Origin: Epilithonimonas xixisoli
GTDB taxonomy: Bacteria > Bacteroidota > Bacteroidia > Flavobacteriales > Weeksellaceae
Assembly (NCBI RefSeq): GCF_004365655.1
Contig: NZ_SOEO01000001.1
Location: forward strand, 1,364,001-1,428,000
DNA: 64,000 nt
Reading direction: 5' to 3'
Notes under the pieces: model-generated
Database searches by the model: none
The model's input: the letters and a program-made list of their open reading frames with translations, nothing else
Told to the model about the DNA's origin: nothing
In this document: piece by piece, positions 11,968-63,159 of the stretch
Position numbering within the stretch: position 1 is the stretch's first letter
Layout: every line of letters starts with the position of its first letter
Translations under genes and position numbers: made by a program

Positions 11968-12339
11968 ATGCTAAAAAAACTTAAATTCTATATCATTGGA
12001 CTGGTTCCGGGATTATTAATTGTATTTGTAATCCTTAATCAAAAAGGTGCCAGCTGCTCCTACTTTCCCAATGACAGAGTCACGGCGGAAACTCTTACAA
12101 AAGATTTCACTTATACTCCGACTTTCAAAACAGAAATGGAACTTCATAAAATCACAGAAAAATTCCTGAAAGACAGCATCATCTCGGAAGGAAAAGTAGA
12201 TTTTGACAAAAGTAATGCACAGGCAAAGCCATGTCCGGAATATCTGATTCTCTACCCGAAAAAAAATCCACATTTTGAAATTAACTATTCCAAATGCAGG
12301 GAAAATGCAGAGTTTACAACTTTAAAAAAACTGAGATAA
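11968..12339 (+). CDS. Small membrane-anchored protein, possibly DUF4258 family
   Basis: 123 aa with one N-terminal membrane segment (FYIIGLVPGLLIVFVIL), then a soluble part with Cys at CSYFPNDRV, KPCPEYLI and KCRENAEF. I recall a flavobacterial DUF4258 protein in this position after alanine dehydrogenase, with a similar start (membrane anchor, then YxPNxRV), but I cannot confirm the match. It is 9 bp after the dehydrogenase gene, so co-transcription with it is likely. Function unknown. Confidence 0.75.
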   Translation: MLKKLKFYIIGLVPGLLIVFVILNQKGASCSYFPNDRVTAETLTKDFTYTPTFKTEMELHKITEKFLKDSIISEGKVDFDKSNAQAKPCPEYLILYPKKNPHFEINYSKCRENAEFTTLKKLR

Positions 12340-14583: not shown

Positions 14584-16875
14584 ATGAAATTTGATATGAA
14601 AAAGTACAGAAATATTATTTTTTACGTTCTTACAATTGCCTTTTTCTCTTGCGTGATGTATTGGTTTTTTGTAGAAGGAAAAACGCTAGAAATAGGCGAA
14701 AAAATAGCACCCAATGTTTCTACTGGAACCACAATGTGGGAAAACTTCACAGACTCTTTCTTAGGCAATCTCCACCATCCTTTGGCTCTGCTTTTGGCAC
14801 AGATTGTTACCATTATTATCGTCGCAAAATTCTTCGGATGGATCTGCGTGAAACTGAAACAACCTTCCGTAATTGGTGAGATGATTGCAGGTATCGTCCT
14901 CGGTCCATCGCTTGTAGGATTGTATTTTCCAGAATTTTCCGCTTTTATGTTCCCAAAAGAATCGCTTCCAAACTTACAATTCCTAAGTCAGATTGGTTTG
15001 ATTCTTTTCATGTACATCGTGGGAATGGAATTGGACCTCAGCGTCCTTAGAAAAAAAGCACACGATGCAGTGGTTATCAGCCACGCCAGTATTATTTTTC
15101 CCTTTGCATTGGGAGTTGGACTCTCTTATTTCATTTACAATGAATTTGCGCCAGACGGAATCCAGTTCAGTTCCTTTGCCTTGTTTATTGCCATTGCGAT
15201 GAGTATCACAGCATTTCCCGTTTTGGCGAGAATTGTACAAGAACGGAATCTTCACAAAACCAAGATTGGAACTGTTGTCATCACTTGTGCTGCGGCAGAT
15301 GACATCACGGCTTGGTGTATTTTGGCAGCCGTGATTGCTGTGGTAAAAGCTGGTTCTTTCTCAGGTTCTATTTTTGTCATTATAATGGCAATTGTTTATG
15401 TTTTCCTGATGATAAGAATCGTAAAACCGTTCCTAACCAGGATTGCAGAATCACAAAAGGGCAAAGGATTCATCAACAAATCTTTGGTTGCTGTTTTCTT
15501 TTTGATATTGATTATCTCTTCCTATTTGACAGAAGTGATCGGGATCCACGCACTTTTTGGGGCGTTTATGGCGGGAGCGATAATGCCTGAAAATGTAAAA
15601 TTCAGAAATCTTTTCATAGAGAAAGTGGAAGATGTTGCTTTGGTTCTTTTGCTTCCATTATTCTTCGTATTCACGGGGCTTAGAACTCAGATTGGATTGT
15701 TGAATGACCCTTATCTGTGGAAAATTGGCGGATTAATCATTCTAACCGCGGTTATCGGAAAATTTGTAGGAAGTGCGCTCACAGCGAAGTTTCTGAAGAT
15801 GAACTGGAAAGACAGTTTAACCATCGGAGCATTGATGAACACAAGAGGTTTGACGGAATTAATTGTCCTAAACATCGGTTACGACTTGGGAGTTCTCGGG
15901 CCTGAGTTGTTTGCGATGCTTGTCATTATGGCACTTTTCACCACTTTTATGACAGGTCCAAGTTTGGATATCATCAATTATTTCTTCAAAGGAAAAAAAT
16001 CCAGTTTGGAGGAAGAAGATAACGCCAACGACGAAAAATACAAAGTTCTTTTGTCATTCGAAACGCCACAATCCGGAAGTACACTTTTAAAATTAGCCGA
16101 TAACTTCACCCATAAAATGAACGGAAACAAAAGCGTAACAGCGATGAATATTGCTCCCCTAGATGAGCTACACGCTTTTGACATCGAAGATTATGAGAAA
16201 GAATTATTCGAAGATGTGATAGATACTTCTCGGGAACTAAAACTGGAGGTCACCACACTTTTCAAAGCGTCCACAGATATCGAAAATGACTTGATTAATA
16301 TTACCAACAAAGGCAATTATGATTTGCTTTTGATAATGTTAGGCAAATCAATTTACGAAGGAACTTTACTTGGAAAACTGCTTGGTTTTACTACAAAAAT
16401 CATCAATCCAAGTAAATTGTTGAACACCGTTACCGGAAAATCATATATCTTCAACAACTCGCCTTTCGATGATTTCACACTCAGTATTTTGGACAAAACC
16501 AATACGCCAGTGGGAATCATGGTGGACAAAAACTTCGAAAGTGCAGACAAAATCTTCATTCCAATTTTTGATCTCAACGATTTTTATTTGGTTGAATATG
16601 CAAAACGTTTAATTAATAATAATGATTCTCAAGTCATAATCTTGGACGCAGCTGGACAAATCCGAAAAAATACAGAAATCCGTGAGTTGATAAGAAACAT
16701 CGAGCATATCGCACCCAATCACATCACACTTTACAATGAAAAAACGATTGAAAAAGATTTCTTGCAGTCTCAGGATTTGATGCTCATCAGCAGCAGAAGT
16801 TGGAAAAATTTGATTGACTCAAAAAGTCTTTGGCTGTCCGACATTCCTTCGACATTGATTGTTTCGAATCCATAA
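14584..16875 (+). CDS. Cation:proton antiporter (CPA2 family)
   Basis: 763 aa. After one N-terminal helix (IIFYVLTIAFFSCVMYW) and a short soluble loop comes a Na+/H+ exchanger domain of about 12 helices (about 60-460), with VIGEMIAGIVLGPSL, a CAAADDITAW motif carrying the paired Asp of electrogenic CPA2 exchangers, and GALMNTRGLTELIVL. The C-terminal 280 residues are soluble and resemble tandem universal-stress-like domains. It exports Na+ or K+ against H+ at the inner membrane; the ion cannot be read from sequence. Family members of this two-part form are common in Bacteroidota. No partner gene. Confidence 0.93.
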   Translation: MKFDMKKYRNIIFYVLTIAFFSCVMYWFFVEGKTLEIGEKIAPNVSTGTTMWENFTDSFLGNLHHPLALLLAQIVTIIIVAKFFGWICVKLKQPSVIGEMIAGIVLGPSLVGLYFPEFSAFMFPKESLPNLQFLSQIGLILFMYIVGMELDLSVLRKKAHDAVVISHASIIFPFALGVGLSYFIYNEFAPDGIQFSSFALFIAIAMSITAFPVLARIVQERNLHKTKIGTVVITCAAADDITAWCILAAVIAVVKAGSFSGSIFVIIMAIVYVFLMIRIVKPFLTRIAESQKGKGFINKSLVAVFFLILIISSYLTEVIGIHALFGAFMAGAIMPENVKFRNLFIEKVEDVALVLLLPLFFVFTGLRTQIGLLNDPYLWKIGGLIILTAVIGKFVGSALTAKFLKMNWKDSLTIGALMNTRGLTELIVLNIGYDLGVLGPELFAMLVIMALFTTFMTGPSLDIINYFFKGKKSSLEEEDNANDEKYKVLLSFETPQSGSTLLKLADNFTHKMNGNKSVTAMNIAPLDELHAFDIEDYEKELFEDVIDTSRELKLEVTTLFKASTDIENDLINITNKGNYDLLLIMLGKSIYEGTLLGKLLGFTTKIINPSKLLNTVTGKSYIFNNSPFDDFTLSILDKTNTPVGIMVDKNFESADKIFIPIFDLNDFYLVEYAKRLINNNDSQVIILDAAGQIRKNTEIRELIRNIEHIAPNHITLYNEKTIEKDFLQSQDLMLISSRSWKNLIDSKSLWLSDIPSTLIVSNP

Positions 16876-16879
16876 TTTT

Positions 16880-16911
16880 TTTGAAATTTCGAAAATTAAT
16901 TTCTATCTTCG
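16880..16911 (+). promoter_or_regulatory. Candidate promoter of the tyrA leader
   Basis: TTTG at 16880-16883, 20 bp spacer, then TATCTTCG at 16904-16911, one base off TAnnTTTG. Transcription would start close to the GTG of the leader peptide at 16916, giving an almost leaderless leader peptide. Confidence 0.45.
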
Positions 16912-16915
16912 TCTG

Positions 16916-16972
16916 GTGAAAACAACAAACAGAACATATTATTACGCAATTCAGACCTTCAAAAAGGATTAG
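16916..16972 (+). CDS. Tyrosine-rich leader peptide of tyrA
   Basis: An 18-codon ORF, GTG start and TAG stop, encoding MKTTNRTYYYAIQTFKKD. It has three consecutive Tyr codons (16937-16945) and one Phe codon (16958-16960) and lies just before an intrinsic terminator upstream of prephenate dehydrogenase. This is the classical layout of an amino-acid attenuator, with Tyr codons before a tyrosine-synthesis gene. There is no ATG nearby and no Shine-Dalgarno sequence, as usual for this phylum. Confidence 0.75.
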   Translation: MKTTNRTYYYAIQTFKKD

Positions 16973-17022
16973 GATTCGTATGTAGCAATATCAAAACCTC
17001 GTCCTATTGACGGGGTTTTTTG
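16965..17022 (+). promoter_or_regulatory. tyrA attenuator: antiterminator arm and intrinsic terminator
   Basis: Terminator: AAAACCTCGTC (16993-17003), loop CTATT, GACGGGGTTTT (17009-17019), then Ts. Alternative pairing: AGGATTAGG (16965-16973) pairs with CCTCGTCCT (16997-17005) over 9 positions with one wobble and one mismatch, which would block the terminator. The leader peptide's stop codon (16970-16972) lies inside this arm. A ribosome reaching the stop would cover the arm and allow termination, while a ribosome stalled at the Tyr codons would leave it free. Confidence 0.75.
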
Positions 17023-17102
17023 TTTTAAATTATTAATGAAAAAATATTGTAAATGAAACGCTTTGCGTTCCATCTGACATAATAAAAAATAAGTATTTAC
17101 AG

Positions 17103-17948
17103 ATGAAAATAGGAATTATTGGAACCGGATTGATTGGCGGCTCCATCGCATTGAAACTGAAAGAAAAAAACTTCACCAATTTCGTTTATGGAATCGACCA
17201 AAATGAAGAAAATCTAAACACAGCTCTCGAACTAAATATCATTGATGAAAAAGCAGATTTGGAAAGTGGCGTCAAGAATTCCGATTTGATTATCATTGCC
17301 ATTCCCGTGGATTCGGCGAGGAAAGTTTTGCCTTCGGTTTTGGATTTAATTAATGAAAATCAAACCGTAATGGACGTTGGTTCTACAAAATCCGGAATCA
17401 TAGAATCGATTAAAAATCATCCGAATAGAAAACGTTTCGTTGCATTCCATCCAATGTGGGGAACGGAAAACTCTGGTCCGAAATCCGCCACCAAAGACAG
17501 TTTTGCGGGAAAAGCAGCCGTGATTTGCAACCGAGAAGATTCAGATTCTGATGCTTTGGCAATTGTTGAAAAAGTGATTGAAAATCTGGAAATGCATCCA
17601 ATTTATATGAATGCCGATTCGCACGACGTTCACACAGCTTACATTTCTCATATTTCTCATATTACTTCTTACGCTTTGGCGAATACGGTTTTGGAAAAGG
17701 AACGTGAGGAAGACACTATTTTTCAGTTGGCGAGTTCTGGTTTTTCCAGCACAGTTCGTTTGGCAAAATCGCATCCGGAAATGTGGGTTCCGATCTTCCG
17801 CCAAAACAAAGAAAATGTTTTAGACGTTTTGAATGAACATATTACGCAACTTAGAAAATTCAAATCTGCCTTGGAAAAGGAGAATTTTGAATATTTGGAA
17901 GAGTTGATTACAAATGCGAATAAGATTCGTGGGATTTTGGATAAGTAA
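17103..17948 (+). CDS. tyrA: Prephenate dehydrogenase
   Basis: 281-aa NAD-dependent oxidative decarboxylase that turns prephenate into 4-hydroxyphenylpyruvate, the step before tyrosine. Rossmann motif GTGLIGGS at residues 7-14, DVGSTKSGI at about 91-99, and the substrate-binding HPMWGTENSGP with His116. No chorismate mutase domain and no ACT domain, so feedback control must come from elsewhere. It is preceded by the Tyr-codon attenuator. A small hairpin (AACGC TTT GCGTT, 17056-17068) lies between attenuator and start codon. Not obviously in an operon, since the next gene is convergent. Confidence 0.95.
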   Translation: MKIGIIGTGLIGGSIALKLKEKNFTNFVYGIDQNEENLNTALELNIIDEKADLESGVKNSDLIIIAIPVDSARKVLPSVLDLINENQTVMDVGSTKSGIIESIKNHPNRKRFVAFHPMWGTENSGPKSATKDSFAGKAAVICNREDSDSDALAIVEKVIENLEMHPIYMNADSHDVHTAYISHISHITSYALANTVLEKEREEDTIFQLASSGFSSTVRLAKSHPEMWVPIFRQNKENVLDVLNEHITQLRKFKSALEKENFEYLEELITNANKIRGILDK

Positions 17949-30078: not shown

Positions 30079-30179
30079 TGGAGCGATGAAAACTACTTTT
30101 TCTGTAACATTTTTAATATTTATAAACTAATTTTGTGGGGTTTTAAAAATCGTTGAAAAGAAAGACAAAACCTCAACAT

Positions 30180-30238
30180 AGCCCCGATTGCAGTGGAAAT
30201 CCTTTTTTGAAAAAAAAGATTGCAACGGAAAGCGGGAG
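30180..30238 (+). repeat. Long imperfect-hairpin element, copy B (shortest)
   Basis: AGCCCCGATTGCAGTGGAAA, then TCC, T-run, GA, A-run and GATTGCAACGGAAAGCGGG. The stem tip is TTTTTT/AAAAAA with a GA loop; the outer stem pairs CCCCG with CGGG(A). The facing GTGGAAA and ACGGAAAG segments form a purine-rich internal loop as in copies A and C. It lies about 80 bp upstream of the ABC transporter operon. Confidence 0.65.
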
Positions 30239-30278
30239 ACAATGGTGAACCGAAGTGGAAATCGTCTTGCTCCTCAAT

Positions 30279-49192: not shown

Positions 49193-49337
49193 TGGGCGTA
49201 TCTCCCTATTTTTCCCAAGCTAAGGACCACGCAAAAAATAGGGAGACCGCGCTATCCACTATTATCTTTCTTATGGGCTAGCAAGCCCACAAGAAAGGAT
49301 AACCGCTACTATCGCTTACGCAGCTTCGCATAGTAGG
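49193..49337 (-). repeat. Highly structured repeat, probable relative of the long-hairpin family (reverse orientation)
   Basis: Contains three nested inverted repeats: TCTCCCTATTTTT with AAAAAATAGGGAGA, CTTTCTTaTGGGCT with AAGCCCAcAAGAAAG, and CTACTAT with ATAGTAG. Flanked by GGGCGT and cgcTTACGC. The middle hairpin has GCTATCCACTATTATC on its left and GATAACCGCTACTATC on its right, matching the reverse of the long-hairpin copies (A/G-rich GGAAA segments around a T/A stem). In the 418-bp gap between tsaC and cca. I recall similar sequences across flavobacterial genomes. Confidence 0.7.
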
Positions 49338-62193: not shown

Positions 62194-62290
62194 ATTGGAT
62201 GTTAATTTTATATTCTAAACTTATAAACTTTCAATTTTTTGACCAATCCTAATTTTTATGACAAAACGCGAATCTTTCGACGAAATCCCT

Positions 62291-62400
62291 AGCCCCGATG
62301 GGAACGGCATCCTTTTTTATTTTTTTTTGTGCTAAGCTTCAATTAAAAAACAAACCGTGTAAAAAAATAAAAAAGATATAGTGGACAGCGGGATTAAGCT
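62291..62400 (+). repeat. Long imperfect-hairpin element, copy C
   Basis: Begins AGCCCCGATGGGAACGGCATCC and ends GTGGACAGCGGGATTAAGCT. The stem tip pairs a T-run (CTTTTTTATTTTTTTTT) with an A-run (AAAAAAATAAAAAAG). Outer stem CCCCG/CGGG. Same layout as copies A and B. About 105 bp upstream of the FKBP gene. Confidence 0.65.
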
Positions 62401-63084: not shown

Positions 63085-63159
63085 CAACCTGTTAATCAAC
63101 CTCTGACGAAGGACGTGAATGTTGCTTGGCTTGACAAAACAAATTTTTTATTACAAAAA

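Follow-up and report, generated by a model that had tools for sequence, protein, structure and literature searches.

The element upstream of tyrA in the window (the whole 64-kb stretch of DNA that was analysed) is, at a probability of about 0.9, a ribosome-mediated transcription attenuator which senses charged tRNA-Tyr and controls this gene. As proposed here, RNA polymerase would begin at the GTG of a short leader frame or within a base of it, and a ribosome would load at the 5'-terminal GUG and translate the leader. With ample Tyr-tRNA the ribosome would get to the stop codon in region 2 and cover this region, and the 3:4 terminator would form. With scarce Tyr-tRNA it would stall on a run of Tyr codons and open the 1:2 helix, so that region 2 could pair with region 3; the terminator would then not be formed in time and tyrA would be transcribed. 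The proposal draws on the sequence parts, their conservation, their mutually exclusive folds and the spacing of the start codon.

All features of the locus lie on the + strand and the neighbour 5' of the leader is a cation:proton antiporter gene (14584-16875). The -7 promoter element, TATCTTCG (16904-16911; published consensus TAHHTTTG), has the start codon of the leader frame 4 nt on its 3' side. This frame (16916-16972) comprises 18 codons plus stop, from GTG at 16916-16918 to TAG at 16970-16972, and encodes the peptide VKTTNRTYYYAIQTFKKD; its first base is probably the 5' end of the transcript. Three consecutive Tyr codons, TAT TAT TAC (16937-16945), are the proposed sensing codons. The 1:2 protector hairpin (16943-16980) has a 5' arm that begins in the third of them and sequesters the 5' arm of the antiterminator, region 2, AGGATTAGG (16965-16973), inside which the leader stop codon is located. 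Region 3, CCTCGTCCT (16997-17005), is at once the 3' arm of the antiterminator and the 5' arm of the intrinsic terminator (3:4), placed with its T run at 16993-17021 by the terminator scan of the window; the stem (16993-17019) has 11 pairs and is followed by a T-rich tail. An extra segment (17053-17102), present only in some Epilithonimonas loci, lies between the terminator and tyrA (17103-17948), the gene that would be regulated. The tyrA product scores 373.6 bits against NCBIfam NF006307, prephenate dehydrogenase (cut-off 295), and its closest relatives (L002-L009, 89-95% identical) carry the names Epilithonimonas or Chryseobacterium.

The first-pass annotation had described the 18-codon leader with three Tyr codons, the terminator between leader and gene, the peptide stop inside the 5' arm of a competing helix and the prephenate dehydrogenase downstream, and all of these are found at the positions given above. 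Its statement that all parts of an attenuator were visible stands for the parts that it named, the protector helix at 16943-16980 having been overlooked. The hallmarks of ribosome-mediated attenuators are present: repeated codons for the product of the pathway in a leader frame before the gene (three Tyr codons, tyrA), a terminator between frame and gene, and a protector helix. Within the window this frame is the sole case of YYY in a frame of 8-45 codons. The pattern TAHHTTYG followed after 4-5 nt by ATG or GTG has five matches in the window, three of them opening frames of less than 60 codons, and among these three only the tyrA leader contains a Tyr run.

The full leader, when free, folds into the protector hairpin (16943-16980) and the terminator at -22.0 kcal/mol (z -2.79 against dinucleotide shuffles, with 1 of 200 shuffles as good or better). 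The competing helix of 16965-16973 with 16997-17005, claimed from the first reading of the sequence, exists: 8 of 9 positions pair, and it is the minimum-energy fold of an RNA ending at 17008 (-9.4 kcal/mol). Masking of 16965-16973, as the first-pass annotation suggested, left the terminator in place and removed the protector (-14.75). Ribosome footprints were applied to folds and geometry at their textbook values. The antiterminator and the terminator are mutually exclusive, and the 5' arm of the former would be masked by a ribosome at the stop codon and free on stalling. The protector helix completes the classical 1:2, 2:3 and 3:4 set. If the RNA is left free from 16951, corresponding to a ribosome at the first Tyr codon, a fold containing the competing helix is still preferred once the RNA is complete (-16.4); if it is free from 16958, the terminator is favoured (-14.0), so that at least part of the switch must be kinetic. 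When partial RNAs of the 74 unique leaders were folded one by one, the protector had at least 5 pairs in 73 (exception L046) and the terminator at least 7 pairs in 73 (exception L015); for the antiterminator, 5 or more pairs between regions 2 and 3 formed in all 74 when the terminator 3' arm was omitted. RNAalifold on all 75 aligned leaders predicted the terminator alone; when two groups of 19 and 56 were folded apart the protector was predicted in both and the antiterminator in the group of 19 only.

Conservation was counted in 81 oriented tyrA loci, the one in the window (L001) and L002-L081. The other 29 of the 110 loci (L082-L110) were excluded because those on the minus strand were unturned and they were mostly repeats of L002-L081. 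The -7 element, a 4-nt spacer, GTG or ATG, the Tyr run and CCTCGTCC occur all together in 75 of the 81 loci, the search pattern permitting spacers of 2-8 nt. An identical arrangement with a variant promoter element, TACTTTAG, is present in L025, and no leader is seen in the five others (L029, L045, L056, L066 and L077). Among the 74 unique rows, Tyr is found at 221 of 222 run codons (74, 74 and 73 at codons 8, 9 and 10), the lone non-Tyr codon being an Asp in L008; codons 9 and 10 vary between TAT and TAC. The start codon is GTG in 67 of these rows and ATG in 7. Column entropy, summed for each codon position, is 8.2, 11.8 and 13.0 bits, the third position being the freest, though only modestly. 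Thr7 and Ile12, both near the Tyr run, are kept in 72 and 71 of the 74 rows. The distance from the start to the first Tyr codon is 18 or 21 nt and that from the first Tyr codon to the stop is 33 nt in all but one of the 75 leaders, while the stop-to-terminator-arm distance ranges from 26 to 33 nt in steps of single bases, as expected if in-frame reading covers the first part only. Region 3, represented by CCTCGTCC (the first 8 bases of the 16997-17005 arm), is invariant in the 75 sequences and its terminator partner varies between G and A, the pattern to be expected where one segment has to pair in two ways. Conservation of the Tyr codons and of the stems in orthologues had been named as a check of the first reading; in Epilithonimonas, Chryseobacterium and two further genera the Tyr codons, the position of the stop, the terminator, the antiterminator and the gene downstream are kept as a set. 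Two variants are of a different kind: in L011 the leader has an earlier in-frame stop, and L167 (G182) carries a decayed Tyr leader in which GTA replaces the start codon and the Tyr run is broken.

Two alignments were used, A1 with 75 of the 81 loci (left out: L025, L029, L045, L056, L066 and L077) and A2 with 21 chosen diverse representatives. The compensating stem changes looked for across relatives are clear for the terminator, where 4 pairs have changed on both sides in A2 and none of 500 shuffles equals that. For the antiterminator, 84.5% of cells are paired in A2, a level reached by 4 of 500 shuffles; sliding the partners by 1-3 columns lowers it to 53.3% or less. Its covariation score of 0.147 is reached by 2 of 500 shuffles. 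Neither its pairs with double changes nor its further pair types are in excess of shuffles in A2, 385 and 408 of 500 shuffles respectively having as many. Shuffling of region 2 sequence by sequence gave 2:3 pairing below 0.05 in 14 of 74 leaders, with a median of 0.09, which is weak support. In distant members the antiterminator tracks changes, as AGGAT/GTCCT, CGGAT/GTCCG and AGGACA/TGTCCT; the clearest are the replacement of A-U by C-G in L159-L161 and the AGGACA/TGTCCT version of genus g23, each probably a single event. Covariation support for the competing helix taken alone is mixed.

A covariance model (R1) was built from the 75 leaders and searched in the family and in the order, both times with stricter filters. 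In the family it matched 127 of 246 genomes, which belong to 4 of 33 genera (g1, g20, g23 and g32), and in the order 49 of 395 genomes, from 2 of 108 genera; tyrA itself was located in 163 of 197 sampled family genomes, in 18 of the 33 genera. Coordinates were compared in 79 of the 127 matching genomes, those with a tyrA position, excluding second matches in G020 and G153 (contig C125), and in all 79 the match lies on the same strand, 14-82 nt upstream of tyrA. The second match in G020 (1882326, 44.4 bits) was rejected as false, having unrelated genes around it and no Tyr leader on reading. The model undercounts, since G193 (g20), missing from the match list, has the leader element on reading. 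Neither a search nor inspection by eye gave a short YYY frame in 28 stretches upstream of tyrA taken from other genera. Of these stretches (L169-L171 and L173-L197, from genera without the Tyr leader), 23 contain a homologue of the window frame at 11968-12339, with 50-66% identity; in g32 such a neighbour and the Tyr leader are both present, as judged by eye. This frame is about 4.8 kb from tyrA in the window and close to it elsewhere, which points to a rearrangement of the tyrA neighbourhood in one lineage or the other. With five of 81 loci without the element and the model matching in only 4 of 33 genera, this control of tyrA is not universal.

Such a distribution bears on the reading in which the hairpin is a mere terminator of the antiporter gene and the small frame is there by chance. 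The antiporter gene is on the same strand and ends at 16875, 118 nt before the stem; against it, the Tyr run, the frame, the promoter and the helices are conserved jointly, the element precedes tyrA in 79 of 79 genomes and the window holds no second short YYY frame, which makes this reading very improbable. Control of tyrA by a T-box or a metabolite riboswitch is equally improbable. T-boxes are given as the RNA control of tyrosine genes in other bacteria in the part of PMC1262725 available, whereas at the tyrA leader no Rfam family reaches its gathering score and the coding frame and the stop are conserved. With Rfam run at the gathering score and at E up to 1, nothing above cut-off was found at this site; the nearest leader family was Phe_leader (22.4 bits against 55, E 0.12) and Leu_leader scored 17.2 bits (gathering 50). 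Both readings were rejected, each on the grounds just given. Elsewhere in the window, the matches that pass the Rfam gathering score are three Flavo-1 RNAs and one ribosomal protein leader, L19-Flavobacteria (62287-62399, 30176-30243, 49241-49329 and 63097-63124).

The attenuator proposed for tyrA would start its leader at the very 5' end of the RNA. All 75 loci have exactly 4 nt between the -7 element, of which there are 8 versions, and the start codon. Among distant members the distance is 4 nt in g23 and in L025, G130, G154, G204 and G193, and 5 nt in g32; the elements of these members deviate from the published consensus (TAnnTTAG, TAGCTTTG). In probable promoters of F. johnsoniae, PMC6847099 gives 4-5 nt from the -7 element to the transcription start and TAHHTTTG as the consensus, so the leader GTG is predicted to be the 5' end and the leader mRNA is probably leaderless. 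The near-leaderless GTG start suspected in the first-pass annotation is thereby strengthened. The same attenuator could be translated from a longer RNA, by read-through from the antiporter gene or from an upstream promoter, and a few points favour this: the scan placed no terminator on the + strand in the interval from the antiporter stop (16875) to the leader, the leader frame runs upstream to a TTG at 16859, and flavobacterial mRNAs are mostly leadered, with 5' leaders of more than 10 nt in 87% of F. johnsoniae mRNAs (PMC6847099) and 5.5% leaderless mRNAs in F. psychrophilum (PMC9723704), as far as the available parts of these sources go. Such an origin is nevertheless unlikely, given the constant 4 nt across 8 versions of the element and its persistence in distant members (5 nt in g32) whose elements depart from the consensus. 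Leaderless messages are rare across the phylum: besides the F. psychrophilum figure, in B. thetaiotaomicron about 3.7% of 5' UTRs are shorter than 10 nt according to the text available for PMC7366714.

Leaders of other amino acid genes were found in relatives. In 10 of 10 loci of the genus a WWW leader precedes the gene of a chorismate-binding enzyme, presumably trpE; in the window's genome (L228, near G000:C1:598,300) it reads MKTMNNNWWWLSNSLSGLKDLSVF and is followed by a hairpin-like stretch and a T run. The ATG of the Trp leader lies 5 nt after TAAATTTG in 6 of these 10 loci, three loci including that of the window's genome have an extra segment between the TAAATTTG site and the leader, and L226 has a different sequence upstream. 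Leaders with His runs precede hisG in 9 of 9 loci (L211-L219, from 6 genus members and 3 other families), with longer 5' leaders as judged by eye; no HisG match was obtained in the window's own genome. Leaderlessness thus recurs and is no rule. Leaders before pheA were searched in 13 loci, of which 10 belong to the same genus as the window, FFF, YYY or WW being required. Mixed Phe/Tyr runs were found in L206, L209 and L210, from three other families of the order, and none in the 10 genus loci, where the only match, L205 (WW), is without such a run. In L206 and L209 the gene next to the leader resembles an aminotransferase by eye.

The segment of about 50 nt at 17053-17102 begins with ATGAAACG and ends directly before ATGAAA, upstream of tyrA. 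A related form is found at the Trp leader start codon of the window's genome (G000:C1:598310-598368). Among loci around a few amino acid genes it has 9 distinct versions, all before tyrA or at the Trp leader, and it looks like an insertion flanked by repeated ATGAAA. It is predicted to pair over the tyrA start codon (CATCTG with CAGATG). A common genome repeat was considered and rejected, since a search of the own genome with its pattern gives only 4 rows, of which two overlap at the Trp leader, one lies before tyrA and one looks unrelated.

Leaders of the pheA and trp genes of E. coli have a run of codons for the product, a stop codon in region 2, and protector, antiterminator and terminator helices. 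The tyrA leader is alike in its short frame with a product-codon run, its stop in region 2 and its three helices, and differs in its predicted sensing of Tyr, in a leader without Shine-Dalgarno sequence, in a flavobacterial-type promoter and in a Phe_leader score far under the cut-off. In Corynebacterium glutamicum, aroR before aroF is also an aromatic-pathway leader-peptide attenuator, with one Tyr codon (Phe-Tyr-Phe); unlike in the present proposal, it is reportedly unaffected by Tyr availability according to the available text of PMC11802643, which also names the pheL and trpL leaders, and it concerns another gene in another phylum. Likewise, the uORFC-13-1 motif (Acholeplasma aroF) combines an uORF and a terminator before an aromatic-pathway gene, although with Phe codons, before a DAHP synthase gene and in another phylum, as described in the accessible part of PMC8632094; this source also cites 1980 work in which attenuation of E. 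coli aroF-tyrA was once hypothesised. Leader frames from the first base of the transcript are given for trpL of S. meliloti (PMC7298713) and for trpL1, ilvL and leuL of Streptomyces lividans (PMC8079986) in the portions available, in other phyla and for other amino acids; trpL of S. meliloti starts with ATG, whereas the tyrA leader starts mostly with GTG. Closest in lineage are the structured 5' elements before pheA and hisG of F. psychrophilum, where PMC9723704 describes strong indications of leader-peptide attenuation upstream of amino acid operons; in the text available from this source tyrA is unnamed among them and no tie to leaderless starts is stated. No Tyr-only leader-peptide attenuator was found among the matches listed in the open-access literature, and the available part of PMC2965389 has no mention of tyrA, tyrosine, Bacteroid or Flavobacter. 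Leader-peptide attenuation in flavobacteria and leaderless attenuators are thus already published, and the mechanism is classical; the Tyr specificity and the probable leaderless GUG start are distinctive.

The S. meliloti case also suggests an additional function, in which the terminated RNA (about 105 nt) or the peptide would act in trans, as rnTrpL and peTrpL do. Like rnTrpL in the available text of PMC7298713, the terminated product would be a small mRNA that lacks a 5' leader, and Thr7 and Ile12 are well kept; these residues are absent in some g23 members and in the L160 type, the peptide C-terminus differs among groups and no finding here demands a function in trans, which is on balance quite doubtful.

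The attenuator of tyrA would add tyrosine to the amino acids sensed through leader-peptide attenuation, and would be a well-conserved example from Bacteroidota, a phylum for which the literature found has this type of control only as an inference. More than 70 natural variants, including a lost Tyr codon, an early stop and a decayed leader, are ready test material. Bacteroidota mRNAs are without Shine-Dalgarno sequences, and a leaderless GUG start is unusual in this phylum. The predicted 5'-terminal GUG would be a simple probe of how ribosomes that work without these sequences load on leaderless messages. A wider idea, to which we give even odds, is that Bacteroidota ribosomes start on a 5'-terminal GUG at this leader, that the leaderless start has been selected as a component of the switch, coupling ribosome to RNA polymerase from the first codon, and that the Tyr and Trp leaders of the genus share this design. 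If true, these leaders would be a natural assay of leaderless GUG initiation in the phylum.
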